Assembly: GCA_026417375.1 (NCBI GenBank)
Contig: JAOADJ010000002.1
Coordinates: 1-34,857, forward strand
Direction: 5' to 3'
DNA from: Melioribacteraceae bacterium
GTDB lineage: Bacteria > Bacteroidota > Ignavibacteria > Ignavibacteriales > Melioribacteraceae
Length of the DNA: 34,857 bases
Part shown: positions 11,488 through 32,367 of the stretch, one piece after another
Layout: every line of letters starts with the position of its first letter
Numbering within the stretch: the first letter of the stretch is position 1
Position numbers and translations under genes: made by a program
The notes under the pieces: model-generated
Databases searched by the model: none
Seen by the model: only the letters and a program-made list of their open reading frames with translations
Told to the model about the DNA's origin: nothing

Positions 11488-11516
11488 GTCTCTCAGGTGG
11501 AAATTTCGCTATGGTA
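11488..11516. repeat. Diverged fragment of the GC-rich repeat
   Basis: The stretch contains CTCTCAG and GGAAATTTCGCTATGG, which match the start and middle of the two better-kept units downstream. It is much eroded and may be an older copy. Boundaries are approximate. Confidence 0.4.
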
Positions 11517-11604
11517 AACTCTCGTCACTCTGATTTGTTTAGTGGCAGGTTGACTTTTCAGTCTCTGATGAATTCAGTCGATTCAGTATAAAATTATGCA
11601 AAAC

Positions 11605-11727
11605 TAAATCTCTCAGCCGTAGGTTGAACCGCATATGATGCAAATTCCACTACGGTTTAACTGCTGATAAGTAGTCCTGTCTACCAACAGGTAGACCTGT
11701 CCGCCTATGGAGGATTCGATTCATACG
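11605..11727. repeat. Dispersed palindromic repeat, copy 1
   Basis: The unit begins TAAATCTCTCAGCCG and ends GGATTCGATTCATACG, exactly as in copy 2. It contains the hairpin CCTGTC-TACCAA-CAGG and a less perfect GCCGTAGG/CCACTACGG pair. It is about 40 bases longer than copy 2 because of extra sequence after CTACGG. Similar GC-rich palindromic units that read through as a Val/Ala-Gly-Arg-Gln peptide are common in AT-rich FCB and environmental genomes (recalled, not checked). Confidence 0.65.
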
Positions 11728-11759
11728 AAAAAAAAAGAGCAAAAAAAATAGTAGCTTAT

Positions 11760-11843
11760 TAAATCTCTCAGCCGAAGGCTGATCCGCCTCTGGCGGAAAT
11801 TCCGCTACGGCCTGTCTACCGACAGGTGGATTCGATTCATACG
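11760..11843. repeat. Dispersed palindromic repeat, copy 2
   Basis: The same unit as copy 1, 33 bases further on. Perfect small hairpins are visible: GCC-GAA-GGC, CCGCC-TCT-GGCGG and CCTGTC-TACC-GACAGG. It ends with GGATTCGATTCATACG. The local richness in G and C stands out in otherwise AT-rich DNA. Confidence 0.7.
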
Positions 11844-14082: not shown

Positions 14083-14376
14083 TTAGTAAAATTGAGTTAT
14101 TTCATTTTTTTCAATTCCGATAATTTTTTTACCAATATGTTTTTGTTCTTCAGCATGATAGAAAATGACAGAGTCTTTTTCTTTGTTGATTATTTTAAGA
14201 AGCTCATCCTTTAAGTCTTTAAATTGATTCGCAGTTAATTCACCTTCAAAAGCAGAGTTTTGCACCCAGTTCATATATTTTCTGAAAGTTTTCAAAGCTT
14301 TAGCTAAACGTTTTGGGCTGGTTATGTCGTAAACAGCTATGTAAAACACTTTATTAATTGGCTCTGTATGGTTCAT
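14083..14376 (-). CDS. cas2: CRISPR-associated endonuclease Cas2
   Basis: 97 residues, the normal size. The first strand is VFYIAVYDITSPKRLAKALK, with the conserved Asp18 at its end, followed by the RKYMNWVQNSAFEGEL segment that is typical of Cas2 in type I-B/III loci. Cas2 forms the dimeric centre of the Cas1-Cas2 integrase that inserts new spacers. It overlaps the end of cas1 by 23 bases, so the pair is translationally coupled. Confidence 0.95.
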   Translation of the reverse strand: MNHTEPINKVFYIAVYDITSPKRLAKALKTFRKYMNWVQNSAFEGELTANQFKDLKDELLKIINKEKDSVIFYHAEEQKHIGKKIIGIEKNEITQFY

Positions 14377-15430
14377 AATTTTTTATTTTTCCTTCAAGGA
14401 AGTTGATTAAATTGTAACATTCCATTCTAATTAAAGAACGGTAAGAAATTCTTCGGTTCAATCTTTTATGATGAATAACAGTAGAAAGTCTGTTTTCAAT
14501 TTGTTCAACAAATTTTTTACGTGGTTCATCTTTAAGATAAAATCCTTCCTGTGTATATTGAAAATCATCATCCTGAATAATATTAAGGTTAAGAACTCTA
14601 AAAATTACTTTATCAACTATAATTGGTTTGAATATTTCTGATAAATCATAAACTAAGGGTTGTTTATTATCTCCAACTTCGTGAATAAAACCAATAAACG
14701 GATTTAGTCGGGTTCTGTAAATTTCATTAAGAATAATTCCATAAAGGATGGAATTTCCAAAAGAGATTAATGAGTTTATAATTCCAACAGGTGGTTGTTT
14801 AATTCTTTTATAAAAATCAGTTTCTCTTTTTATTAACGAGGGCCAGGCAGAGTAATAAATAGTTCTGATGTTACCTTCATAACCAAGAAGCTCAGAAATA
14901 GTTTCTGCAAAGTGAATTTGTTCGAGTATTGAATTAATGTTTGCAATTTGTTCTAGTAAATCATCATTATCATCAAAAGAATTTTTCAGGTTAAATAAAA
15001 TATTTTTAACAGAGGATTCGAGAATTGATTTAGCAATAAAAACTCTACGGTTATAAGTATAATATGCTTCGAACTGTAAAGTTTGAATATGCCCTGAACC
15101 ATTGTTATTAAGGGGTAAAAAACTTCCGACATAATTTCCATAGTAATTGAAAATATGAACAGGAATATTATAGTAACTTGCAATTTTGAAGAACTGAGTA
15201 TTAAAACGAACTTCCCCAAAAGTATAAAAAGCTTCAATTGATTCTGCAGGAATATGTTTGGGTTTATCAAACACATCATCTTTTTGAGCAGGTAGAATTA
15301 CATTTTCCTGTTCAGTTTCATAAATATCAATTTTGTGTTGTGGTTCAACATCCTTAATTGTATGTAATGTAAATGAGTTATCCTTTCGACTTAATACTGA
15401 ATTAGAAAATATGTAAATATTGTTCTTCAT
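14354..15430 (-). CDS. cas1: CRISPR-associated integrase Cas1
   Basis: 358 residues. The N-terminal beta domain begins NNIYIFSNSVLSRKDNSF and has VGSFLP at 101-106. The catalytic domain keeps Glu185 in LLGYEGNIRTIYY, His250 in GFIHEVG and Asp262 in VYDLSEIFKP. It most resembles the I-B/III-type Cas1 group. The segment about 28-60 is longer than I remember for the family and may be an insertion in the N-terminal domain. It overlaps cas2 and lies 39 bases after the zinc-ribbon gene. No array is present next to it, so new spacers must be inserted elsewhere or the array has been lost. Confidence 0.96.
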   Translation of the reverse strand: MKNNIYIFSNSVLSRKDNSFTLHTIKDVEPQHKIDIYETEQENVILPAQKDDVFDKPKHIPAESIEAFYTFGEVRFNTQFFKIASYYNIPVHIFNYYGNYVGSFLPLNNNGSGHIQTLQFEAYYTYNRRVFIAKSILESSVKNILFNLKNSFDDNDDLLEQIANINSILEQIHFAETISELLGYEGNIRTIYYSAWPSLIKRETDFYKRIKQPPVGIINSLISFGNSILYGIILNEIYRTRLNPFIGFIHEVGDNKQPLVYDLSEIFKPIIVDKVIFRVLNLNIIQDDDFQYTQEGFYLKDEPRKKFVEQIENRLSTVIHHKRLNRRISYRSLIRMECYNLINFLEGKIKNYEPYRAN

Positions 15431-19420: not shown

Positions 19421-20506
19421 TCATTTAATAATAAATCGGTCTTTAGTTGCTATAATATGGTAAGTAGATTGACCATATTTTCGATTTACATCAATAATAA
19501 AATTTTGTGAAATATCATTATCATTAATAAGTGATTGAATTTTAGAATTGACTTTAGATCTTTTCACTCTGAAATCTTCTTTTGAAAATCCTTTTTTGTA
19601 CCAGTTTTTTTCTTTGATGTAATAATCATCACTATAAAATTCATTAAAGTATTCAATAAATTTTAATTTAGTTTCATCAGAAGTAAACTCACCAACAGAG
19701 ATTTTATTATTGCCACGTTTTTTAGAATCAATAAAGAAATAATAAAAGAGAAATTCTAAAGGTTCTAAAAGAACAGAATCGTTGCCAAACCTTAATTCAC
19801 GTCTTTCAATATCAATTATCATTTTATTTGATGGAGCTAAAACTTTTAATTGAGCTTGAGTAAATTTTACAATATCATCAAATTTAGATTGTAATAATTT
19901 GCTGCCTTTAATTTCATTAGAAAGAAGAGAACGTAACCGAACAAAAGGTAAATCTGCAATTTCAAGATCATTTGCTTCTTTTTTATTTAAAGGGAAAAAC
20001 CCTTTGAACTCATTTTCTTCTTTTGTTAAAACATGAATCAATCGGTCATTTTCTCTTGCAAAAAGTGAAAGTGCATTAGCCATGTGAACACTCATAGATT
20101 TTCTTCCACCTGTAATTGAACAAAATAAAACATTATATGGATCTGCTGATTTAATTTTTAAAAATTCACATACTTTATTTGGGAATAAAATATTGTCTTT
20201 ATCTGAACGTATATCGGAAAGTTCAATTGATTCTTCTTTGGCAACAATTATATGATTATCATTTTCTTTAAATAGAGGGGCTTTCAATTTATACATTTCG
20301 CATAAGCTTTCAATTTCTTTTTTTAATGGTGTTTTTGGTGTTGAAGGATGAGTATCTTTACCAAGGATAACATCTCTTCCCCTTTTTGTTGTTAAAACAT
20401 AAACTTCATGAATAGGAATTTTTTCTTTTACTGCTAAACAGTAAAGACTTTCAGTAACTATCTGAGGTGTTAACCCTGATACACAAATTAAAATATTATT
20501 TGTCAT
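19421..20506 (-). CDS. NE0113-type CARF protein with C-terminal winged helix
   Basis: 361 residues. Residues 1-190 match the NE0113 family (TIGR02584/PF09623): the start MTNNILICVSGLTPQIVTES, and CSITGGRKSMSVHMANALS at 129-147, which is the CARF ligand-binding loop and helix. The family is annotated in databases as a Csm6-like ring nuclease. There is no HEPN RxxxxH motif anywhere. Instead, residues about 229-360 have an OmpR-like winged-helix pattern: RRELRFGNDSVLLEPLEFLF, then a probable recognition helix at RVKRSKVNSKIQSLI (313-327) and a C-terminal hairpin. It may bind cyclic oligoadenylate and either cut it or control transcription. It overlaps the Card1-like gene by 4 bases (ATGA), with GAGGA upstream. 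Confidence 0.85.
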   Translation of the reverse strand: MTNNILICVSGLTPQIVTESLYCLAVKEKIPIHEVYVLTTKRGRDVILGKDTHPSTPKTPLKKEIESLCEMYKLKAPLFKENDNHIIVAKEESIELSDIRSDKDNILFPNKVCEFLKIKSADPYNVLFCSITGGRKSMSVHMANALSLFARENDRLIHVLTKEENEFKGFFPLNKKEANDLEIADLPFVRLRSLLSNEIKGSKLLQSKFDDIVKFTQAQLKVLAPSNKMIIDIERRELRFGNDSVLLEPLEFLFYYFFIDSKKRGNNKISVGEFTSDETKLKFIEYFNEFYSDDYYIKEKNWYKKGFSKEDFRVKRSKVNSKIQSLINDNDISQNFIIDVNRKYGQSTYHIIATKDRFIIK

Positions 20507-21540
20507 ATAAATTCCTCATTATTATTAGCAACATTAATGGTTTTAATATTTAATTCTTTTGCACGTTCTAAAAATCTTTTTGTACCTTTTTTTGCAGATA
20601 CAAAAATTCCTTTTCCAAAAGTGCCACTGGTTATGTTTGTTAAAGTTTCCAGTTGAAATAAGTCATATTGATTATCACTTTTTCCACTTTTACATGAATA
20701 ATTATAAAGCATATAATTTTTTAATACCAAAACATCAATTTCATTTTCAACATTTTCATCACTTATAATTTTTACACCTGTTAAGGGATCAAGATTATAT
20801 TTTTTCTTAAGTATATAAAAAACAAAATATTCTAACCAATCACCAGATTTAAATTCTGAGCTTTTAAATGAAATAGTTTTTTTAATGGTGTTATTGTATT
20901 GAATTGAATATGTATCAAAATTTTTATAGAAGACAAAATTTTTGTTTTTACTTGAAATTGTAATTTTCGGATAATCTTCAGCTTGTTTCGATCTGATTTC
21001 AGCAAATAATAAAATAAATTCATTCATTAAATTTTTTTCAAGAATAAAATCAAAAAGAGGGAAATATTTATCAACTAATAAAGTGCTTTTAGTTTCTTTA
21101 ATTTTATAACCATAAGAAATTAGATAATCGTTAACAGACAAATTTGCAATTAACTTTTCAATTTTATATTCGGGCAAAAGAGTAATAATATTTTGATGTT
21201 CAGTATCACAATAAATGATTCTCAAATTTTTCTCAGCAAAAGCTTCATAAGCAGCTAGAGCCATTAATTTTGTTCCGCCAGTAATATTCAAAGATACTTC
21301 ATTCGAATAATCGTTTATTTCTTTATTAACAACATTTTTGAATCCAATAAAATCATAAGCATTAAGATCTTCAATTTTTTTTACATTTATAGATTTTGAA
21401 GTAAATAATTTTTCTAAGTTGTTAGCGGTTTTTTTTTCTTCTTTAGTAGAAAACAAAACGACTTGTTTTGGTTTATACATTAGCACTGGAAGAACATTCG
21501 CCATCGCCTGACGGGATACAAGACAAAACATTGTTTTCAT
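20503..21540 (-). CDS. card1: Card1/Can2-type CARF nuclease (DUF1887)
   Basis: 345 residues. The N-terminal CARF domain (1-140) has SLNITGGTKLMALAAYEAF (83-101), the loop that holds cyclic oligoadenylate. The C-terminal domain is of PD-(D/E)XK type: Glu237 in GDWLEYF, Glu267 and Asp269 in ENEIDVLV, and Lys284 in YSCKSGK. At the position often filled by the second acid there is Ser282-Cys283. Characterised Card1 and Can2 proteins are cA4-activated nucleases that cut nucleic acid and slow the cell during type III immunity. GAGGAG ahead of the ATG lies within the edge of a flanking repeat. It follows a GxxExxY cassette and overlaps the NE0113-type gene. Confidence 0.88.
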   Translation of the reverse strand: MKTMFCLVSRQAMANVLPVLMYKPKQVVLFSTKEEKKTANNLEKLFTSKSINVKKIEDLNAYDFIGFKNVVNKEINDYSNEVSLNITGGTKLMALAAYEAFAEKNLRIIYCDTEHQNIITLLPEYKIEKLIANLSVNDYLISYGYKIKETKSTLLVDKYFPLFDFILEKNLMNEFILLFAEIRSKQAEDYPKITISSKNKNFVFYKNFDTYSIQYNNTIKKTISFKSSEFKSGDWLEYFVFYILKKKYNLDPLTGVKIISDENVENEIDVLVLKNYMLYNYSCKSGKSDNQYDLFQLETLTNITSGTFGKGIFVSAKKGTKRFLERAKELNIKTINVANNNEEFI

Positions 21541-21541
21541 T

Positions 21542-21637
21542 TTTTCTCCTCTGTGTACTAAGTGCGCTAAGTGGTAAGATTTTTTTTATTAACCACTCTG
21601 CCTGAGGCAACAAGTAAGTTCACTTAGCAACACTTAG
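21542..21637. repeat. Flanking repeat copy A of the GxxExxY cassette
   Basis: A stretch of about 96 bases lying in direct orientation with copy B (22060-22149). Both share CTCTGTG, CTAAGTG, CTAAGTGGT, a T-run, AACCACTCTGCC and CACTTAG at the end. Each copy is itself an imperfect palindrome: CTAAGTG units on the left face CACTTAG units on the right. The left edge supplies the ribosome binding site of the Card1-like gene. Confidence 0.75.
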
Positions 21638-21639
21638 AT

Positions 21640-22053
21640 TTATTCATCTGACAATTTGCTGAATTCCTCAGTAACCAAAGGCACTAAAGATTCAGTAATT
21701 GAAGTAGTATTAAAATTAATTAACAAACCTTTAGGCATCTTAAGCAATTTTAAATAAGTAAGTAACTGAGCTTTGTGAATTGGTAAAATCGCATCAACCG
21801 CTTTTAATTCAACAACAATTAAATTTTCTACTATGATATCAGCTCTTAACTCAGCTTCAACTGAAATACCTTTATATTCAACAGGGACAACAACTTGTTG
21901 ATTTACAATTAATCCTCTTAACTTCAATTCGTGCATAAGGCATTTTTCATAAACCGATTCGAGTAATCCGGGTCCTAATGATTTATGAACCTCAATAGCT
22001 GCTCCGACAATATCATAAGATAGTTTATTTACATATTTCTTTGTAATCTTCAT
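21640..22053 (-). CDS. GxxExxY-family PD-(D/E)XK-like protein
   Basis: 137 residues, full length for the family. The name-giving motif is GLLESVY (29-35). A nuclease-like core follows: Asp72 in LRADIIV and Glu82-Leu-Lys84 in VVELKAV. The family (PDDEXK_3) is predicted to be nuclease-like; its function is unknown. Such genes are scattered through FCB genomes and often come with short flanking repeats (recalled). Here two near-identical repeats of 90-96 bases flank the gene exactly, in the middle of a CRISPR effector operon, so it looks like a mobile passenger and not part of the immune system. It keeps the operon's direction. Confidence 0.88.
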   Translation of the reverse strand: MKITKKYVNKLSYDIVGAAIEVHKSLGPGLLESVYEKCLMHELKLRGLIVNQQVVVPVEYKGISVEAELRADIIVENLIVVELKAVDAILPIHKAQLLTYLKLLKMPKGLLINFNTTSITESLVPLVTEEFSKLSDE

Positions 22054-22059
22054 AACTAA

Positions 22060-22149
22060 TTTTCTCTGTGCTCTAAGTGTACTAAGTGGTTAGTTTTTTT
22101 TAACCACTCTGCCAGTGGCAGATAAATTAGAACACTAAGTAACACTTAG
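22060..22149. repeat. Flanking repeat copy B of the GxxExxY cassette
   Basis: Direct repeat of copy A, ending one base before the stop codon of the small accessory gene at 22151. It contains GTGGTTAG facing AACCACT, and CTAAGTGT facing AACACTTAG, so the transcript would fold into a long hairpin between two genes of the operon. Confidence 0.75.
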
Positions 22150-22150
22150 G

Positions 22151-22516
22151 TTATACTTCTCTAAATCTCACAAAATTAAAAGTGACAATTTTTTTTCCAT
22201 CTTTTTCCTCAACAATTCGATTAGTAGTAGAAAAGACCACAGCAATTTTTTTCTTTTTAAGAATTTGTCCTAAAAGAAATACAAAAGTAAACTCTCCCAT
22301 AAGATGAACGGCATTATTTTTATCATCAGATGATTTTAATAAATCAATAATCTTCAACAAATACTTTTCAGCTTTTGCAGTAACTTGCTTAGTATTTGCT
22401 TTTGGAGAAATAAGAGGGAAAGGCAAATCAACTACCTTTCCGAATTTTCTTTTAGCAGCATTTAGCTGTTGAGAAGACCAATTATTACTAGGATGATTAG
22501 AGAGGTTGATGAGCAT
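22151..22516 (-). CDS. Small CRISPR accessory protein, possible ring nuclease
   Basis: 121 residues, starting 5 bases after the cmr6 stop. The layout is Rossmann-like: strand MLINLSNHPS, strand KVVDLPFPLIS, helix, strand-helix AVHLMGEFTFVFLL (HLMGE at 71-75), strand IAVVFSTTNR (STTNR at 96-100) and a final strand KKIVTFNFVRFREV. I recall relatives of this protein next to type III Cmr/Csm genes in Bacteroidota. The size, fold pattern and position resemble Csx15/Csx16/Csx20-type proteins, some of which degrade cyclic oligoadenylate, but I cannot assign it to one of these. The ribosome binding site is weak (AAAGAG). Confidence 0.6.
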   Translation of the reverse strand: MLINLSNHPSNNWSSQQLNAAKRKFGKVVDLPFPLISPKANTKQVTAKAEKYLLKIIDLLKSSDDKNNAVHLMGEFTFVFLLGQILKKKKIAVVFSTTNRIVEEKDGKKIVTFNFVRFREV

Positions 22517-22521
22517 ATATG

Positions 22522-23349
22522 TTACTCTTTAAAGTAGCCATAACCTACAGCTGTTTTTGCTCCAATACCTTTTTGGGTTAGCGCCTCTTTCAGAAACTTT
22601 TTACCAAGATCTAAATAAGTTCCTCCTACATTTCCAATTCTGCCAACTTCATTATCATTTTCACTTATGCCAATGATAAATTGAAATGCAGTATTTTCTA
22701 CTGTTACAAAAAATATAGGAACAGGATTATAATAATCTGCTGGAGGTTTTGTGTTAGTCTTATCAGAATAATAAGGTCCATAATGCGGATTCATTACATC
22801 AACCTTTAGGTTCGGTTTAGCAGTAGGAAAAGCATCAAAGAAAACAATTGAACCTTGATGTTCCTTTTTTAATACACTTTCTTTCGGGCAACCAAATAAA
22901 TAACAAAATGTGGCATTATTAAATGCTTTTTCTTCTTTACTTTCAAAGTGTTCTATAATTACACAACTTCTGACAATTCCTTTAACAGCCTGTCCAGGTA
23001 TATAGGGGAACCCATAAATTGGATGGAGATTTATTGATGTTTCATAAACAGATTCTGTTCCAAGACCAATTGCTAATCGCCAATCAATTTCAAGGTTTTC
23101 TGAATGATGATTTTTTCCAAATAATATTTTGGCCGAGTCTAAAATTTCATCACAAAGTTTCTTGAATTTTATTCCATTAAATTGAAAACTGGAAACATCA
23201 TTATAAATGGTTTGGCCTTTATCAGTTTTGTAGAAAGAAAATTTATCTTTATCAAATCTTGCAAACTTGTGAAATTTAAGTGAGAAATTTAAAATTTCTT
23301 CGCGTTTTATAATTTTACTTGTATCAGATGGTACATATAATTCTGGCAT
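22522..23349 (-). CDS. cmr6: Type III-B RAMP protein Cmr6
   Basis: The start is the ATG at 23347-23349: AAGGAG lies 6-7 bases before it, and a longer frame from a TTG would overlap cmr5. The product has 275 residues. The RAMP signature is INLHPIYGFPYIPGQAVKGI, and the glycine-rich end is GIGAKTAVGYGYF. Cmr6 caps the backbone of the Cmr effector together with Cmr1. Also visible is a FNNATFCYLFGCP segment typical of Cmr6. The ATG follows the cmr5 stop by one base, so translation is coupled. Confidence 0.94.
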   Translation of the reverse strand: MPELYVPSDTSKIIKREEILNFSLKFHKFARFDKDKFSFYKTDKGQTIYNDVSSFQFNGIKFKKLCDEILDSAKILFGKNHHSENLEIDWRLAIGLGTESVYETSINLHPIYGFPYIPGQAVKGIVRSCVIIEHFESKEEKAFNNATFCYLFGCPKESVLKKEHQGSIVFFDAFPTAKPNLKVDVMNPHYGPYYSDKTNTKPPADYYNPVPIFFVTVENTAFQFIIGISENDNEVGRIGNVGGTYLDLGKKFLKEALTQKGIGAKTAVGYGYFKE

Positions 23350-23350
23350 A

Positions 23351-23734
23351 TTATTCTCCTTCAATTAATCCATCTGCAAATCTTTTCAACCAGGAAAGAA
23401 ATGATATTACCTCCGCTGTTAAATTTCTATACTTAATTGATGACATCTGATTTAACTCCATAACTAATTCATCGAATGATTTTATTTTATTTGCATCTAT
23501 TTTATTTTGATCCTTCAACCAATCATAAATATTTTTCCCGATAGCATTCCAGTATTTTCCCTCATCTTTATTTTTTTTGGAGAACATAAATGCAAAAGTT
23601 GCTCCAAGGCCATTTGTCTTAATTAACATTGGTAACTTCTTAACATAGCTTTTATACTCTTTACCTAGATTTGATGCATTCCTTGCGCAGTTATATGCAA
23701 ATTCAGCTTTAATTTGTTCAGTATTTCTTGGCAT
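23351..23734 (-). CDS. cmr5: Type III-B small subunit Cmr5
   Basis: Start chosen at ATG 23732-23734, because GGAGG lies 8 bases before it; two upstream in-frame ATGs would overlap cmr4. The 127-residue, mostly helical protein has the family features: an RNxEQIKAEFAY start, SYVKKLPMLIKTNGLGATFAF and a tail of FLSWLKRFADGLI. Cmr5 lines the inner filament and contacts the target RNA. One base separates the cmr4 stop and this start. Confidence 0.93.
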   Translation of the reverse strand: MPRNTEQIKAEFAYNCARNASNLGKEYKSYVKKLPMLIKTNGLGATFAFMFSKKNKDEGKYWNAIGKNIYDWLKDQNKIDANKIKSFDELVMELNQMSSIKYRNLTAEVISFLSWLKRFADGLIEGE

Positions 23735-23735
23735 T

Positions 23736-24746
23736 TTATTTTCCTCCATTTTTTTTCTCATTAAAATTAATTTTCATCATTTTAACGATACCTTTTCCAA
23801 TTGTAGCATTACCACCAATCTGAACAACTTCAGGTAAACTTTTTTCAAAAAATTCCATTACAAGCTCTTCTTCATTTTTACCATTTTTCTTGAAAATTCC
23901 TTTTTTATTGTCATCTTTTTGGAAAACAGGTGAAGCAAAAACAATAAAGTACATAATTGTTTCAGGGGGTAAGTACTCTTCATTAAATAATGCTCCAATG
24001 GCAACCGTACCTGTTGCATTATCAATTTTGGTTCTTGTAATTACTTCTGTCGATTGATTTACAAAATCTTTAAAGTCATCATCACTTAAAACAACGAGTT
24101 TTTCTTTTAATTCGGAAGACAGGGAGTACAAAATATCAAACTTTAATTCTTGTTTTTCTTCAAAAGTGTATTCCTCTAAAACAACAGCTTTTTTATCTAT
24201 TGAGACTTTATTATCTGAAAAAGTTAAACATTTACCTATTGTAACATCAGGAATTGTTAAATTGATTTTTTGTCCGCACAAATTCATATCTTCCACAAAC
24301 CTCTTTAACACATACGGGCAAGTAATCCAAGCAAAAACACCTTTAGCTGATCTTACAGGGAAGAAAAGCAATCTTGCATCAGAAAAACCAAGTGCACCAG
24401 AAAATTCTTTGTCATCATCGAATTTTTTGATTATTTCATCTTGGGTTCCTGATTCATCATAACCAAAGGCAAGATGAATTGAATAATCATAGTTTAATAT
24501 TAACTCCTTAGTTTCATTTTGGGTACTAATATTTAAAATATTTTTTATAAATTCTTCTTTCTTTGTCTTTTCATTTGTTTCAAAAGATTCTCTCAAAGCA
24601 CCCTTTAATGAAGAACTTTCAACTTTGGGAAATGATGTATGTTTTTCTCTTTGGATAGGTAAATCAACAATACCTAAATCATTACCACTTCCAGCGTGAA
24701 GTGATGAAATTGTTCTGAACATAAATGGTTTTGCAAGTTTAAACAT
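23736..24746 (-). CDS. cmr4: Type III-B backbone RNase Cmr4
   Basis: 336 residues. The N-terminal motif HAGSGNDLGIVDLPIQREKH (17-36) contains Asp28, which corresponds to the catalytic Asp that cuts target RNA at 6-base steps in studied Cmr4 proteins. PKVESSSLKGALRESFE follows, and near the C-terminus QIGGNATIGKGIVKM is the glycine-rich RAMP loop. AAGGAG precedes the ATG. The target-RNA cutting function looks intact. The 14-base gap to the CARF nuclease gene upstream shows that gene is in the same operon. Confidence 0.95.
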   Translation of the reverse strand: MFKLAKPFMFRTISSLHAGSGNDLGIVDLPIQREKHTSFPKVESSSLKGALRESFETNEKTKKEEFIKNILNISTQNETKELILNYDYSIHLAFGYDESGTQDEIIKKFDDDKEFSGALGFSDARLLFFPVRSAKGVFAWITCPYVLKRFVEDMNLCGQKINLTIPDVTIGKCLTFSDNKVSIDKKAVVLEEYTFEEKQELKFDILYSLSSELKEKLVVLSDDDFKDFVNQSTEVITRTKIDNATGTVAIGALFNEEYLPPETIMYFIVFASPVFQKDDNKKGIFKKNGKNEEELVMEFFEKSLPEVVQIGGNATIGKGIVKMMKINFNEKKNGGK

Positions 24747-24760
24747 AGATTATTATCTCC

Positions 24761-26149
24761 TTATATTTTTATTTCTTCAATGTCACTTTTTTCAATTTTA
24801 CTACTTACAATTTTTTGGTAAGGATTATCAGCAGAATAAGATGCACTACTTTCTTTAATAAATACTTTGAAAAATCTTAATACTTTATTTATACTTTTAA
24901 TTTGTTTTGCAACTTCATCAATTTCTTTTGTATCTACACTACTATTCAAGGTGTATATATAAAAATGATACTCAAACGTTGCTTTATCGAAATAATCTTC
25001 TATAGCTTTTAATCTAACTTGTAAGTCTGAGATTATTTTATCTTTATTGTTCAAAAAAGAATAAAAAGCTTTTACTTCACAAAAACAAAAAACATCCTTT
25101 TTTTCGTTAGATAATACAATATCAAATTCTCTCTTGTATTGAACACTTCTTTCAACTTTTTTCAATGTAATACCATTAATGGTTAAGGGGTTATTTATAA
25201 AATATTCGTATAGTTTGAATTCAGCAATATAACCGAAAACATTTTTTGCATTAACTGTATGATTTTCTGCATAATCCTTTATCATTTCACCAAGTACAGT
25301 AAATTCATATTTGCCTCTATTATTATTTATTAGCTTATAATTTTCTAATTTTTTTATTTGTAGCATATCATCGAATTTTTTTGATGATAGATCTAAATAA
25401 ATTTTTTCTAAAAATAATTCATCAATTCCTATATTAATTTGGGGAATTGTAATTAGTTCGTCGCTTTCTTCAAAAATATATTTTGATTCAATATTGTATA
25501 ATTGTGCTAATATGGTTAAAAATGGAATAGTCGCTTTATACCCTCCAGAAATATTAAAGATAAATTCTTCACTTATTTTTTGTTTATTCTGAATAGTAAA
25601 AGTATCATCTTTAACATTAAATTCATCTTTAAAGATTTCCCTAATCTTTTTAACGAGGTTTATCAATCCAATATTAAATTTTTCAAATGAATCAACAACA
25701 AGGTTTTCAATTAAATAGCAATGAATCTCTATTTCTTTATTTAATAAAGACGGTAAATTTTCTTTTAATAACTCAGCTGCTAATTGAGATAAAACACTGT
25801 CAGAGTAGAGAAGATAAACTTTATAATTTTGTTTGTTGTCTGATGTAATTTTCAATAGACTTTTAATCTCTGCAGATGCATCTAAATTAAATTCTTCTTC
25901 TTTAATTTCCCAACCATCATCTGTCTTAATAAGACCTTTCAACCATTTGTTCTCGATTACTGCTTTTATGTTTCTTATTGTCCTTTGAAATTTTGGATTA
26001 TTGTATTCAGATGAAGTTAAGTTTTCCAATTCTTTCAGTAAATCATTTATATCCTGATAATCATCATTAATAAAAGAATCCCTGACTTCGCCCTTGGTAT
26101 AATTTGTAAAGAGACTTGTTCCAACGGTGGTAATAATTTTTTTTGTCAT
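24761..26149 (-). CDS. CARF-PD-(D/E)XK nuclease inside the cmr operon
   Basis: 462 residues. The start MTKKIITTVGTSLFTNY is that of the APE2256-type CARF family (TIGR02619). The CARF ligand loop is NISGGYKATIPFLTILAQLY (199-218). A region at about 245-300 may be a winged helix (LENYKLINNNRGKYEFTVLG). The C-terminal part has a PD-(D/E)XK core: Glu310 in GYIAEFKLYEYF, Asp343 in KREFDIVL and Glu358-Val-Lys360 in FCEVKAF. All three key positions are filled, so the nuclease is probably active. It would be a cyclic-oligoadenylate-controlled DNase or RNase, distinct from the Card1-like gene downstream. GGAG precedes the ATG, and the gene overlaps cmr3 by 4 bases (ATGA). Confidence 0.82.
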   Translation of the reverse strand: MTKKIITTVGTSLFTNYTKGEVRDSFINDDYQDINDLLKELENLTSSEYNNPKFQRTIRNIKAVIENKWLKGLIKTDDGWEIKEEEFNLDASAEIKSLLKITSDNKQNYKVYLLYSDSVLSQLAAELLKENLPSLLNKEIEIHCYLIENLVVDSFEKFNIGLINLVKKIREIFKDEFNVKDDTFTIQNKQKISEEFIFNISGGYKATIPFLTILAQLYNIESKYIFEESDELITIPQINIGIDELFLEKIYLDLSSKKFDDMLQIKKLENYKLINNNRGKYEFTVLGEMIKDYAENHTVNAKNVFGYIAEFKLYEYFINNPLTINGITLKKVERSVQYKREFDIVLSNEKKDVFCFCEVKAFYSFLNNKDKIISDLQVRLKAIEDYFDKATFEYHFYIYTLNSSVDTKEIDEVAKQIKSINKVLRFFKVFIKESSASYSADNPYQKIVSSKIEKSDIEEIKI

Positions 26150-27237
26150 TTTAATACTCCAATCATTGAAATCCCAAAACCATAATTCTGAGTATCATAT
26201 TCAGAAATAGATTTATTGTTAAATATTCTCTTAGCATCTTCAAAGCTTCCTTTTAAAGTTTCAAAGTAATAAACAGAACCAGGTGGAACTGCTTTTCTCA
26301 TCGGTTTAGGCACTTTCTTTTTCATATCAAATCCTCCAATTGAGATTGGTTTTTTAATAAATGCAGAAATTAACTTAATTCGAATCCCATCTTTTTCTCC
26401 AATTAATGATTCTTTGTTTATCCACTTAGGAAGCCAACCATTTTCAAAAAAGGCGGGTGTTATAATATATAACTTGAATTTATTTCCATCATATTTGTTT
26501 AAAGTAATTGGCTCATAGATATCTGTTACCTCTGATATTTTCGCAATTTTCCCTTCTGCACCAAGTTTAATAAACTTAGACAGTTTTTTAGAGAATTCAT
26601 TGTCAGCAATTTCAACGATAATACTTAGACCAATTGGGCGTCTCATTCCTACTCTATATAACTTTGATTCATCCGTGGTATGCGTTAAATTGTTACGACC
26701 AATTCCCACTTTACTTTCCATAATGAAATAATCGTCCAACAATTTACACTCAAATTCATCATTATCTAAAAATCCATTTAAATACTGATCAAGTTTATCC
26801 ATACCAATAATAGCATTTTCCAAATTCTCAACTTCATCTTTGGCTTTAATTACTTTTAGTTCGTTATGAATTGAAGACAAAACATTTAATAGGTTCCCAG
26901 TTAAAACATTAATCTTATATTTTTTAGTGCGTTTTTCTGTTTTAACTTCTATTTTAGATTTATTTTTTCGGTAAACAATATCTAAAGGCATCGGGAAATG
27001 AATACTTTCATTAACTCTATAATATATGTCCGTAATAATTAAATCATTAAATGACGAACCCTCAGTTAATTGATTTATCATTTCTGGATTTGAACTTAAA
27101 ATTGCACTTGAAATCGCTCCATAGAATACTGACGGTGGTGGTGGAAATATTCCATCAGCCCAAGTTTCTTCCCCCATAGAAAAAGGTTTTCCATCTTTAA
27201 AGAATAAAGTATCAATAGCATCAATTTTAATTTTCAT
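26146..27237 (-). CDS. cmr3: Type III-B RAMP protein Cmr3
   Basis: 363 residues. Near the start KDGKPFSMGEETWADGIFPP and PSVFYGAISSAIL are typical of Cmr3, which binds Cmr2 and the 5' tag of the crRNA. The end YDTQNYGFGISMIGVLK is the glycine-containing RAMP strand. GGAGGC lies upstream of the ATG, and the gene overlaps cmr2 by 11 bases, so cmr2, cmr3 and the CARF nuclease are translated in a chain. Confidence 0.95.
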   Translation of the reverse strand: MKIKIDAIDTLFFKDGKPFSMGEETWADGIFPPPPSVFYGAISSAILSSNPEMINQLTEGSSFNDLIITDIYYRVNESIHFPMPLDIVYRKNKSKIEVKTEKRTKKYKINVLTGNLLNVLSSIHNELKVIKAKDEVENLENAIIGMDKLDQYLNGFLDNDEFECKLLDDYFIMESKVGIGRNNLTHTTDESKLYRVGMRRPIGLSIIVEIADNEFSKKLSKFIKLGAEGKIAKISEVTDIYEPITLNKYDGNKFKLYIITPAFFENGWLPKWINKESLIGEKDGIRIKLISAFIKKPISIGGFDMKKKVPKPMRKAVPPGSVYYFETLKGSFEDAKRIFNNKSISEYDTQNYGFGISMIGVLK

Positions 27238-28942
27238 TTTTGCCTCCGTTGAGGTGTCTGCTAATAAATTCTGAAATAAACAATGCCGTAAAGAGATTTT
27301 CCGTATCTAATTTATAAAGCGAAATAATTTTTTCTGTTGTTTCATCAATTTTAAGTTTTTTCCTCTTCTCGAAATCTTCTTTAGTTTCGTTCTCTCTCTT
27401 GCTAAACTTAGAAGAACGAGCAAGTAATCTTTTTAATTCGGTTTTCAAAATTTCATCAGATGGATTTATATTATAAAATTCCGATGATAATTTGTTTATA
27501 AAGGATTTCGAAAAGATTTCATTTGCTAAATCATAGGTCAACTGAGCAATTGCATCTAGATTTTCATTGTTCTTATCACCCCATTTTAGAATTGTTTTAT
27601 TAATTTCACCAGAATGTTTCATCACTGCGATTGCAAATGCATTTTTATCATCATCTATATTCTTAGCATCCTTTTCAAGTTTACGAACCCAACTTAAAAC
27701 TTCTGATAGCGGCATTTTATAATGAGTTATAGCAATTCCTGCAGAAAATGTAAGATTTACATTTTCTATTATGAATTCCGAAATTCCCTGATTTACTATT
27801 TCATCAAATTTCTTGCGTAGTTGGTTTAGGATATCAAATAGATAATTTAGATTAATAAACGCAAGAAAATCTTCACCACCAGCATAAACTACTTTACCTT
27901 TATCACTTGTTACAATATTTTTTGTTTCTTCTGCAAATTTTCCTAATGACTCAGTTAATTTATTATGAAATTTTTTTAGTTCCACTGTTGAATTTAAATA
28001 AGCACCTGAAAGCCACTTACCCATACTGTCGCCATCAAACATAATTACAGAAAAATAGGGTGTAAATTTCATATTATTTTCTTTGAATGCCTTCTTAATT
28101 CCAATGAATTTATTTTTTGCTTGTTCAAGAAGATTTTGAGGAATACTCTGTTTCTCAAAATATTTTTTGGTTAAATTTTCTTCAAAAAGTAATTGATAAT
28201 CAAAATAACCCTTAAACAGATTCTTATAATCTTCAAAAATTTCTTTTGGTCTAAGTTTTTTAACAGAATCTAGCAAAGCAATCTCTGCAGTTGAAGGGAA
28301 ATGTTTATCCTGGTAAAACCTCTTTGTATAACATACTGCACACAACCCTTCACCATCCTGCAATTCTAAATTCTTAACTTCTACTGCATCAGATTGGTAA
28401 TAATTGTGCTTTTTCCCATAATAAAATATTGCATTTCTTTCTCCGCAAATAGAGCACTTTCGCCCTATTTCTTCTAGCTGTTCAAATTCACGAACATTTT
28501 TTACAGCACCAAGAAGAGATTCTATTTCCAGAAATTGTTCATTATATTTTTCGGATTGATAAGGAATTGCAACCCATTGAATAGATAAATGTTTTTTAAT
28601 TTGATCACGAAAGTTATTTGGAAGTTTATTGACCACAACATTTGTATTCATAATAGAAAGCGACGAATATTCTTCAAATTTTTCAATTACTTTTATTTTA
28701 AGGTCATCACCAAATTTTTTCATATCTGTATCATTATCTTTTTCAATTACAGCAATAAATCTGTTTGGGTATGAATCCAATCCTTTCATCGGGAAAATAA
28801 GTTCAGTGGGTTTGGCTTCTTCAATAGCGTATCCGATTAAATCAGATAATATTTTACTACCAGAAAATAAATCTTTTGTTTTTCTTGCTTGTGCAATGAA
28901 AGATTGTACGGGAGATATTGTAAAGAGAAATAAATATTTCAT
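27227..28942 (-). CDS. cmr2: Type III-B Cas10 (Cmr2), HD-less
   Basis: 571 residues, much shorter than Cmr2 proteins that carry an N-terminal HD nuclease. The protein starts directly with the Cmr2 palm region MKYLFLFTISPVQSFIAQAR, so no HD domain is present and target-activated DNA cutting is not expected. The zinc site is C163/C166 (CSICG) and C201/C204 (CAVC). The cyclase palm has FDGDSMGKW (302-310) and AGGEDFLAF (354-362). The usual GGDD is GGED here; the third acid is still present, so cyclic oligoadenylate synthesis is likely. The start is fixed by GAGGA upstream and a 4-base overlap with cmr1. Confidence 0.95.
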   Translation of the reverse strand: MKYLFLFTISPVQSFIAQARKTKDLFSGSKILSDLIGYAIEEAKPTELIFPMKGLDSYPNRFIAVIEKDNDTDMKKFGDDLKIKVIEKFEEYSSLSIMNTNVVVNKLPNNFRDQIKKHLSIQWVAIPYQSEKYNEQFLEIESLLGAVKNVREFEQLEEIGRKCSICGERNAIFYYGKKHNYYQSDAVEVKNLELQDGEGLCAVCYTKRFYQDKHFPSTAEIALLDSVKKLRPKEIFEDYKNLFKGYFDYQLLFEENLTKKYFEKQSIPQNLLEQAKNKFIGIKKAFKENNMKFTPYFSVIMFDGDSMGKWLSGAYLNSTVELKKFHNKLTESLGKFAEETKNIVTSDKGKVVYAGGEDFLAFINLNYLFDILNQLRKKFDEIVNQGISEFIIENVNLTFSAGIAITHYKMPLSEVLSWVRKLEKDAKNIDDDKNAFAIAVMKHSGEINKTILKWGDKNNENLDAIAQLTYDLANEIFSKSFINKLSSEFYNINPSDEILKTELKRLLARSSKFSKRENETKEDFEKRKKLKIDETTEKIISLYKLDTENLFTALFISEFISRHLNGGKNEN

Positions 28943-29814
28943 ATTATTATTTCCTCTATAAAATCTTGAACCTTGTTAGTCTTTTTAGAATTATTACTTA
29001 AACTAATAAAGGGGACAGATGAAGAAGATTTTAATTTTGTTATTACAGGATAGAAAACATTTTTAATTTCTAAGCAAGACACATAAATCGGTGAAGCAAA
29101 TCTTAAATTTTCACCATTATATTTTTCAGTAAAACCAGTATGGTAGCAATCGTTTTTATGTGAAGATTCTCCTATCTTTTTTAATAATTCATTAATATCA
29201 TTATATTCTTTGCCTATTATTACTTTTTCTATAATTGGATAATTAGCTTGTTTTTGATAAACACAATTAATCTCATTTTTATTTGTCTCATTAAGTTGAA
29301 ATCCATCGTTATGTAATTTATTTAATAATGTAAGTAATGAATTAAACTCATAAGAATAACTTTCTTCTCCAATCTTAATTACCTTAAAACTTCCAAATCC
29401 TCTTCTGCTTCTTTTTCCTATTCCACCTAAATAGGAAACTGTTAAAAATAAATTTTTGATTGTTTCATCAGCATTACTAATAATTACTTGAAAAGCAACT
29501 CTTTCTTTAATGCACTTTGCTGTGAACTTTTTATTATCACTATGAGGCAAGGGACGGTATTCAGAAAAAATATCATTAGAGTTACAAGTTATTCTAATTG
29601 AAAACTTACTCCTTCCCTCTTTTTCCCCGCTTCCACCAAAAATTAATGCTTCCTTTTCCATTAACTCTGCTAACGGTAAATGACCATTTATTGCACGCCA
29701 CCAAAAACGCATAGCTGCTTTAATACTCGGTGGTCTTAGTTCAGGTGTTTTACCATCAGCACCAGCTAAAAACATTGGTGTTATTGTTTCACATTGGAAA
29801 ATTATTTTTTGCAT
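28939..29814 (-). CDS. cmr1: Type III-B RAMP protein Cmr1
   Basis: 291 residues, on the short side for the family, which often has a second RAMP domain. The start FQCETITPMFLAGADGK and RPPSIKAAMRFWWRAINGHL are diagnostic for Cmr1; LIFGGSGEKEGRSKFSI and the glycine-rich loop GGIGKRSRRGFGSFKV follow. Cmr1 sits near the 3' end of the crRNA at the tip of the complex. AAGGGA precedes the ATG. It begins 87 bases after the end of cas6, in a gap that holds a possible operator. Confidence 0.95.
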   Translation of the reverse strand: MQKIIFQCETITPMFLAGADGKTPELRPPSIKAAMRFWWRAINGHLPLAELMEKEALIFGGSGEKEGRSKFSIRITCNSNDIFSEYRPLPHSDNKKFTAKCIKERVAFQVIISNADETIKNLFLTVSYLGGIGKRSRRGFGSFKVIKIGEESYSYEFNSLLTLLNKLHNDGFQLNETNKNEINCVYQKQANYPIIEKVIIGKEYNDINELLKKIGESSHKNDCYHTGFTEKYNGENLRFASPIYVSCLEIKNVFYPVITKLKSSSSVPFISLSNNSKKTNKVQDFIEEIII

Positions 29815-29878
29815 ATAATTTTTTCCCTTTTCTTCTTAAACAAAATTATTGTTGAAATTTATTTTTTCCCAAAAGAGA

Positions 29879-29895
29879 AACGTTGTGAAAATATT
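29879..29895. promoter_or_regulatory. Degenerate copy of the 7-3-7 dyad ahead of cmr1
   Basis: AACGTTG-TGA-AAATATT. The left arm and the preceding GA match the dyad at 15895, but the right arm is only partly symmetrical. By eye, 14 of 19 positions agree with the 15893-15911 sequence. It lies about 65 bases upstream of cmr1 on the minus strand. It may be a third, weaker operator or chance. Confidence 0.3.
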
Positions 29896-29900
29896 TCTAA

Positions 29901-30707
29901 CTACTTACTTTCTTCGTAAACTAATCCAAATCCCATTGCATTTTGACTTCCAAATCCAGCTTCATAGCCAACTTTTATTAATTCTACATCACCTTTTAAT
30001 TTGAATGGACAAAACATTCCAATTATTTCTATAGGTGATTCATAATCTTTCATTATGCTTACTTTTTTAGTTAGCTTTTTATTCTCTTTAGAAGCCTTTA
30101 GTAAGTAATCATAGTCCCAAGTAAGTTTTAAGCCGTTGCCCTCGTAGGATTTTTTATAAATTGTCTCGTATTTATTTATCAAATTCTGATTAAATATTTT
30201 ATTAATATTTTCGATATCGTCTTCAACTCTATAATAATAAGTATTTAATTTTCCATTGAATTGTATCTGAGATGAAAGAACCATTGGTGTAATCATCTTA
30301 AATTTCATTTCAGATTTGAACATCGGTTCTGGTATTATTTCAGATGTTACAATATTAAATTTTGTTTTTAATCCTTCACTAAAGATTTCAATTTTTTGAT
30401 TCTCAAATGTTCCAATAACAAAATTTTTTATGAAATCATCAACTAATGGTGAAGAAATGTAAAGGTAAGCATTTGGTGATTCGAGTTTTAAAAATTTATT
30501 GTTCGAAGATGTTTTTTCTAATTGCAACCCAAATGTAAATAGCTTATAAGTTTTATTATTTGAAACATATCCTTTATCGTGTAAGAATGTTGAAAATTCT
30601 GGTGAGCCAAACTACAATAATTTATAAATAGCAGCTGATAATGAATAATTATAATTAAATGAAATTTTGTCTGAAGAATTTGCCCTAAGTTTCAGTAATA
30701 GTCTCAT
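29901..30707 (-). pseudogene. cas6: cas6 interrupted by an in-frame amber codon
   Basis: Read from the ATG at 30705-30707, the frame gives MRLLLKLRANSSDKISFNYN, then SLSAAIYKLL, a TAG at 30612-30614 (codon 32), then FGSPEFSTFLHDKGY and on to a normal C-terminus with VGYEAGFGSQNAMGFGLV, the glycine-rich Cas6 loop. Total length without the stop is 268 codons, normal for Cas6. Tyr28, His43 and Lys52 sit where the catalytic Tyr31, His46 and Lys52 lie in Pyrococcus Cas6, and the stop falls between the first and second. The frame can restart at a TTG (30525-30527), but that product would lack all three. The gene's own final stop is also TAG. It may be a recent pseudogene or a base-calling error. 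Confidence 0.85.
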
Positions 30708-30916: not shown

Positions 30917-30938
30917 AATCCTCACATTCATGAGGATT
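30917..30938 (-). terminator. Leftward Rho-independent terminator
   Basis: AATCCTCA-CATTCA-TGAGGATT is a perfect 8-bp stem with a 6-base loop. On the minus strand it is followed by TTTTTATTTTT, so it terminates transcripts coming from the right. Only 8 bases separate it from the tRNA-end remnant, a normal position for a tRNA terminator. Confidence 0.8.
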
Positions 30939-31122: not shown

Positions 31123-32367
31123 ATGACTATCAACTTCTATTTAGACAAAAACAAAAACTTAAAAAGTAATGAACGTACTATTTACGTTTATGTCGGATTC
31201 GGTAAAAAAAGACTGGTATTTAATACAGGGGAAAAAATTGATCCAAAATATTGGGATGTATTAAAACAACAATCAAAAAAATCATATGTAGGAAGTCCAG
31301 AGTTAAATTCTTTTTTAAATTACATTAAAGAAGAAATAAAAAAATTAAATAGACAACTTACTATTGATAAAATATTTCTTTCTGATGAAGAATTTAAATT
31401 AAATGTCCATCAAATAATTAAAAAGACCCAACCCCAAAACACAAATTATCAATTTTTCGATGCATTCAATAGGTTCATTGAAACAAAAAAAAATATTCGT
31501 TCTCACAGATCAATTCAAAAATATTATACTTTGTTAAATCATCTTAAGAATTTCCAAACAACAAAAAAGTTTACACTTTCTTTTGATAAAATGAACATGG
31601 AATTTTATGAAAGATTTACAGATTATCTTTTCAATAATAAAAAAATGACTGATAATACTGTTGGGAAATATATATCAACATTAAAGACTTTTTTATCATG
31701 GGCTTATGATTTAGAATTAACAAAAATCTCAACATTTAGACGATATAAAGTATTTGAAAAAAAAGCAGAAATAATCTATTTAACTTCTGAAGAATTGTCT
31801 TTATTAGAGAACTTAGAATTAGAAAATAAAAGCTTAGAGCAAGTAAGAGATGTATTTTGTTTTGCTTGTTATACAGGTCAAAGATTCAGTGATATTTCTA
31901 GTATTCAATGGGAAGATTTATCAGACAATTATTGGAATCTTCGTTCTTATAAAACAAAAGATATAATTAGAATTCCACTAATCGATAAAGCAACTAAAAT
32001 CATACAAAAATATAGAGAATGTGAAAAACCTCTACCAATTATTTCTCATCAAAAAACAAATGAATATATTAAAGAAATGTGCAAAATAGCTGGACTAACT
32101 GAATTAGTTACTATTAATCGTTATAGTGCATCTAGAAAAATTGAAATAACTAAACCTAAATATGAATTTGTAACAACACATACTGCAAGAAGAACTTTTG
32201 TAACTCTCAGTCTTGAAAAAGGATTAAGACCAGAAATGGTAATGGAAATAACAGGACATAAAGAATATAAAACAATGAAAAAGTATATGAGAATAACTGA
32301 CAAACGAAAAGAAATCGAACTAAAACAAGCATGGGAAAGAGAAAATTTAATAAAGAGAGTTATTTAA
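31123..32367 (+). CDS. Tyrosine recombinase / phage-type integrase
   Basis: 414 residues. The N-terminal arm-binding domain (1-100) has the Bacteroidota pattern TIYVYVGFGKKRLVFNTGEK and IDPKYWD. A SAM-like core-binding domain covers about 108-205. The catalytic residues are all present: Arg254 in TGQRFSDIS, His353 and Arg356 in HTARRTF, His379 in ITGHKEY and Tyr388 in KKYMRI. TAGGAGG lies 5-6 bases upstream of the ATG. It reads away from the candidate attachment site, so the element should extend to the right. Confidence 0.93.
   Translation: MTINFYLDKNKNLKSNERTIYVYVGFGKKRLVFNTGEKIDPKYWDVLKQQSKKSYVGSPELNSFLNYIKEEIKKLNRQLTIDKIFLSDEEFKLNVHQIIKKTQPQNTNYQFFDAFNRFIETKKNIRSHRSIQKYYTLLNHLKNFQTTKKFTLSFDKMNMEFYERFTDYLFNNKKMTDNTVGKYISTLKTFLSWAYDLELTKISTFRRYKVFEKKAEIIYLTSEELSLLENLELENKSLEQVRDVFCFACYTGQRFSDISSIQWEDLSDNYWNLRSYKTKDIIRIPLIDKATKIIQKYRECEKPLPIISHQKTNEYIKEMCKIAGLTELVTINRYSASRKIEITKPKYEFVTTHTARRTFVTLSLEKGLRPEMVMEITGHKEYKTMKKYMRITDKRKEIELKQAWERENLIKRVI

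Follow-up and report, generated by a model that had tools for sequence, protein, structure and literature searches.

A type III-B CRISPR-Cas locus of a Melioribacteraceae bacterium with an in-frame TAG codon in cas6 and few recognizable CRISPR repeats in the assembly

Mutation of a cas gene can silence a defence locus, and insertion sequences are reported to inactivate cas genes in nature (PMC10359306). In addition, Cas6-independent activity is reported for the E. coli type I-E system, which shows that in certain settings a CRISPR-Cas system does not need its Cas6 (PMC4499155). Here, we describe a type III-B (Cmr) locus of a Melioribacteraceae bacterium in which the reading frame of cas6 is interrupted by a stop codon. 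The case resembles the insertion-sequence events, as far as the available part of that report describes them, in that mutation of a cas gene would silence a defence locus, but it differs in being a point nonsense change, with no insertion. The E. coli type I-E system, again as described in the available text, is a laboratory system, whereas the present locus is known from sequence alone.

The window, i.e., the whole stretch of DNA that was analyzed, comprises 34,857 nucleotides of contig JAOADJ010000002.1 (assembly GCA_026417375.1), and all coordinates refer to it unless another contig is named. The gene set that defines type III-B is present on the minus strand as a series of open frames: cmr1 (28939-29814; ORF list and PADLOC), cas10/cmr2 (27227-28942; PADLOC and comparison with 9arw), cmr3 (26146-27237; profile match and PADLOC), cmr4 (23736-24746; PADLOC), cmr5 (23351-23761; profile match and PADLOC) and cmr6 (22522-23364; PADLOC). 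The same strand carries a gene for a CARF protein, of the CARF-RelE type by PADLOC (24761-26149; also a profile match), a csx20-like gene (22151-22516), a CARF-PDDEXK (csx1-like) gene (20503-21540; PADLOC), a CARF gene of the CARF5 family that is also matched by a CARF+WYL model (19421-20506; PADLOC), the sole cas1 found in the assembly (14354-15430) and cas2 (14083-14376). Thus, the locus is like other type III-B systems with CARF effectors in having cmr1, cas10, cmr3-6, cas1, cas2, csx20 and three CARF genes, all open, but it differs from them in that cas6 (29901-30707, minus strand) is interrupted and the array there is a few insert-bearing repeats. The original prediction, that the other genes of the cmr operon are intact, agrees with the cmr genes all being open frames. 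At the palm motif, Cas10 has GGED in place of GGDD, and so does its closest solved relative, the III-B Cas10 of 9arw, which we presume may be the SAM-AMP-making enzyme of B. fragilis.

Several further features of the neighborhood were noted. The nearest relative is a genome of the same genus, here called G005, in which a III-A (csm) effector adjoins the orthologous cas6, in contrast to the III-B (cmr) effector of the window. In comparison of window positions 22522-30707 with the corresponding loci of G005 (L073/L074), cmr and csm stand amid homologous cas6, csx1, CARF, csx20, cas1 and cas2 genes, an arrangement in which the effector modules have apparently been swapped between the two genomes. 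An intergenic repeat is present in two copies (21549-21640 and 22064-22152) that flank a PDDEXK_3 gene (21640-22053), and similar stretches occur in G005. On the other side of the locus, a divergent tyrosine recombinase gene (31123-32367) adjoins cas6, and the locus may have arrived on, or been struck by, a mobile element. Between cas6 and the recombinase gene lies a hairpin (30917-30938) that is terminator-like on both strands (2 found against 0.2 expected). A promoter scan upstream of cas6 gave 12 sites compared to 11.3 in shuffles, and Rfam and tRNA scans of the window gave no matches.

The cas6 frame, read on the minus strand from position 30707, encodes 31 residues, a TAG codon, 236 further residues and a terminal TAG. 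As originally predicted, translation of 29901-30707 gives 268 codons with a single internal stop, at 30612-30614, which falls at residue 32 between Tyr28 and His43. C-terminal to the stop, the protein gives a match to PF01881, the family of the Cas6 C-terminal part (E 6.5e-25), and PADLOC calls it as Cas6b (4.1e-44). When the frame was read through with X at the stop, the product aligned with the Cas6 structure 5yi6 over residues 1 to 264 (E 2.6e-20), and with 3pkm in two stretches. Since the alignment with 5yi6 starts from residue 1, both halves are Cas6, so that by sequence the two domains belong to the family and the earlier claim of Cas6 residues on either side of the stop is confirmed. 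Compared to the Cas6 endoribonucleases represented by PF01881, 5yi6 and 3pkm, the window gene is alike in that both halves align, the catalytic residues align and the C-terminal glycine-rich part is kept, but it differs in that the in-frame TAG would end translation before two of these residues, His43 and Lys55. No match to a 41-base pattern spanning the TAG codon was found in viral contigs.

The positions of Tyr28 and His43 fit the known catalytic pair. We take 3pkm to be the Cas6 of P. furiosus, with its catalytic lysine at Lys52 in P. furiosus numbering; on that assumption, the residue paired with this lysine in the 3pkm alignment is Lys55. The original prediction had placed Tyr28 before the stop and His43 and Lys52 after it, and its tyrosine, its histidine and the separation itself hold, while the catalytic lysine is more likely to be Lys55 than Lys52 according to the alignment. 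Whichever of the two lysines is taken, it lies after the stop, and the predicted separation of the catalytic residues by the TAG is unchanged. As encoded, no single translated protein contains the Tyr/His/Lys set, and the full catalytic set would be united in one Cas6 protein only if the TAG is wrong or is read through. An alternative start after the stop was considered, but the start of the listed ORF, a TTG at 30527 (residue 61), is already past both His43 and Lys55.

To place the stop among related genes, Cas6 was searched for in 58 genomes including the source genome, and was present in 28 of them. The 35 match rows outside the source genome comprised 28 that were inspected, six without a locus, and one partial match of 101 residues that was dropped (L029). 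A sense codon occupies the stop column in all 28 relatives inspected (11 R, 7 K, 5 Q, 3 N and 2 G), and in all 28 the frame continues upstream of this column, with one (L028) running off its contig before any start is reached. The possibility that relatives simply start after the position of the stop, which would have removed the significance of the TAG, therefore fails in every relative inspected. A wider search sampled 391 genomes of the class and gave a Cas6 match in 93 of them; the model used for this search starts just after the stop and is blind to a stop of this kind, upstream codons having been inspected only in the 28 relatives. Consistent with this, the wider search lists the window gene itself as free of internal stops; such stops do appear in one other row, which is a fragment. 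Among the 88 rows that cover model positions 5 to 229, the open frame of the window gene, at 236 aa, is the shortest, followed by frames of 256, 256 and 258 aa. A scan of named genomes returned three relatives, labelled Ignavibacteriales, Ignavibacteriaceae and Bacteroidetes, which places the host probably in this group.

The remainder of cas6 carries no sign of decay. Relative to the G005 orthologue, the part after the stop is 77% identical with a dN/dS of 0.10, and nine other genes of the locus compared with G005 gave dN/dS values of 0.03 to 0.25 and no internal stops. At the 33 columns with at least 90% agreement among the other relatives, this Cas6 shows no change. The low dN/dS together with the unaltered conserved columns rules out a long decay of cas6 and indicates that the stop is either recent or an error. 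As judged from the sequence, the intact rest of the gene is no less compatible with a base error (or a minority allele) than with a mutation that is real and recent.

The original prediction did not mention the array, and here we found the cas-adjacent array to be nearly gone. The array of G005, beside the TPR gene and cas2, comprises 54 copies of a 30-nt repeat separated by spacers of 35-40 nt, counted by a pattern with exact cores in which inserts were allowed; in four of these copies, palindromic sequence has been added at one or both of two fixed positions. Window and G005 are collinear, at 72% identity, over the region that runs from the leader-side repeat through the TPR gene, but no regular CRISPR array was found in the window. 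Two recognizable repeats and perhaps an eroded third occupy the syntenic site on the minus strand, and the two carry inserts at both positions used in G005. The leader-side repeat measures 80 nt with its two palindromic inserts (11763-11842) and is syntenic with the leader-side repeat of G005; the second, of 119 nt, is both insert-enlarged and mutated (11608-11726). Between them is a spacer-like stretch of 36 nt (11727-11762), a diverged copy of which is on contig C30. The possible third repeat (11488-11588) was recognized by eye and missed by the pattern search.

A search of the whole assembly with up to 3 mismatches allowed gave no copy of a 22-base core of the G005 repeat, and the exact 12-base 3' end of this repeat was found four times, two of these in the window and two at the start of C30. 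All four repeats found in this way carry inserts. C30 starts with two enlarged copies that match base for base over 118 nt and are separated by 38 nt, and a C30 repeat, spacer and part of the next repeat are 88% identical to the window over 209 columns, indicating that the spacer is shared. Because C30 ends at its enlarged repeats, more such units, and a longer array, may be absent from the assembly. Of six other genomes searched with the C30 unit, G005 gave short matches, and the remaining five gave none at E 0.01. A 23-base array match on contig C19 was set aside, as it sits in an apparent coding sequence.

The enlarged repeats fold into several hairpins. Folding energies are -33 kcal/mol for the leader-side repeat (z -2.8), a value equalled by 2 of 200 shuffles, and -41.6 kcal/mol for the C30 repeat (z -3.1; 1 of 200), compared to -34.2 kcal/mol for the other window repeat (z -1.4; 22 of 200) and a weak -2.7 kcal/mol for a normal G005 repeat. 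Insert-enlarged repeats lie at window positions 11608-11842, at L073 3557-4789 and at L089 1-279, in two species of the genus, and the use of the same two insert positions in the repeats of both suggests an element family that favors CRISPR repeats. A palindrome of the same kind was seen on contig C57 (L090, 182-229) between two copies of a frame that, named by eye, is GIY-YIG-endonuclease-like; these flanking frames may point to the element that spreads the palindrome. Among the papers listed by keyword searches, none was seen to describe palindromic inserts within the repeats of CRISPR arrays, a weak footing for any claim of novelty.

The state of the array bears on when Cas6 ceased to be needed. 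The window and C30 copies diverge by 0.11 substitutions per site, or about 0.055 per copy. Had Cas6 been free of selection since these copies parted, a rough estimate is that about 4 changes would be expected at the 33 conserved codons, and 0 are seen; the formula was run with 0.064 and 0.128, which gave 4.8 and 9.5, and the value of about 4 follows from the slightly smaller 0.055. This suggests that Cas6 was probably still needed after array decay began, which weakens a scheme in which the array was lost first and Cas6 thereby became dispensable. The absence of changes would mean either that Cas6 stayed useful on an array outside the assembly, or that the TAG is erroneous or belongs to a minority allele. 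The earlier proposal of a newly crippled system is supported with respect to cas6, which has no other damage, but not with respect to the system, which is not otherwise intact in the assembly given the decay of the array beside the cas genes.

We favor the reading in which the nonsense allele is real and recent, and weighed it against four others. The base could be wrong, as the original prediction also allowed, through an error in the consensus or in base calling, or the TAG could be the minority allele of a mixed population, with cas6 intact in most cells. That the TAG is the sole defect seen in an otherwise constrained gene is what this would predict, and the assembly is a draft of 2.83 Mb in 58 contigs, the named relatives found being metagenome assemblies. 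However, an error in one base that happens to create a stop in a given gene would be unlikely beforehand at normal depth, and the nine other genes compared with G005 are all free of internal stops; across the 27 window ORFs the one in cas6 is again the only internal stop, a comparison weakened by 26 of the 27 having been chosen as open. We regard such an error or minority allele as unlikely, yet as the foremost alternative. Considerably less probable is readthrough of the TAG, whether by a suppressor tRNA or by programmed recoding, with full-length Cas6 as the product. Purifying selection on the part after the stop would be in keeping with readthrough, as would the rarity of TAG as a stop: in about 141 kb of the genome's own, partly overlapping sequence, it ends 2 of 49 long ORFs. 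The Tyr, Gln and Lys tRNAs that are present could in principle misread TAG. Against this, the stop is found in none of the 28 inspected relatives, giving no sign of conserved recoding, and the terminal codon of cas6 is itself TAG. The amber suppressor tRNA that had been suggested did not appear: a CTA anticodon is absent among the 40 tRNA genes whose anticodons were read, 150 of 247 first-look candidates having been scored, and this incomplete set also lacks tRNAs for Ala, Ile(GAT) and Ser(GCT). Thus, neither a suppressor tRNA nor a stop conserved in relatives was found among the sequences covered. Genome-wide reassignment of TAG was ruled out, as reading through the two ORFs that it terminates would add just 4 and 15 codons, and we take TAG to be a normal, though rare, stop in this genome.

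The remaining two explanations concern a substitute for Cas6. Palindromic elements may insert at two fixed repeat positions in the genus, and the resulting hairpin-rich repeats of 80-119 nt might no longer be Cas6 substrates; a host RNase may then cut these enlarged repeats to make guides, and the III-B system might run, or have recently run, without Cas6, leaving cas6 free to die. Inserts in all four repeats found via their 3' end, the strong folds of the leader-side and C30 repeats, and the two identical C30 copies, whose separation is close to the spacer length of G005, would all suit such Cas6-free processing, and distinct processing pathways are reported for Synechocystis in the available part of one study (PMC3575380). 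On the other hand, the window repeats are mutated and the spacer copy on C30 has diverged, which looks like duplication and decay and not like new acquisition, and for the other window repeat, 22 of 200 shuffles folded as well as the repeat itself. We therefore hold guide production by a host RNase to be very doubtful. Hardly credible at all is a second Cas6 acting in trans from outside the assembly. The sharing of one Cas6 between systems is known, according to the accessible part of one report (PMC11127173), and the tRNAs missing from our list mean that the assembly may have gaps. However, the window gene alone matches Cas6 in the assembly at E values up to 1, the one Cas1 found lies within the window, and completeness is given as 99%, so that the original suggestion of processing by another Cas6 finds no support.

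These results point to a III-B locus that has almost no array in the assembly, and in which the only cas6 of that assembly probably carries a real, recent nonsense allele. The reality of the allele is what we infer; the stop, the failure to find a second cas6 or a suppressor in the assembly, the sound rest of cas6 and the near-absence from the assembly of an array with this repeat were observed directly. If the allele is real, translation of cas6 would end after 31 residues and no Cas6 would be made, and any pre-crRNA would be left uncut by Cas6 in this strain. The array would already have shrunk to a few repeats with palindromic inserts, leaving little for Cas6 to process, and the loss of cas6 would have been tolerated because so little substrate remained. 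The cmr and CARF genes would still be open because the loss is young. In this state, the system probably cannot make guides by the usual route. Through a point stop in the cas6 of a III-B locus, it adds one more case of a known kind, natural cas gene loss, and is for the most part an ordinary example of how a defence system falls silent. If real, it would offer a snapshot of a type III-B system just after the loss of its guide-processing enzyme, with the effectors open and the array almost gone, and would suggest an order of events in which erosion of the array came before the stop in cas6.
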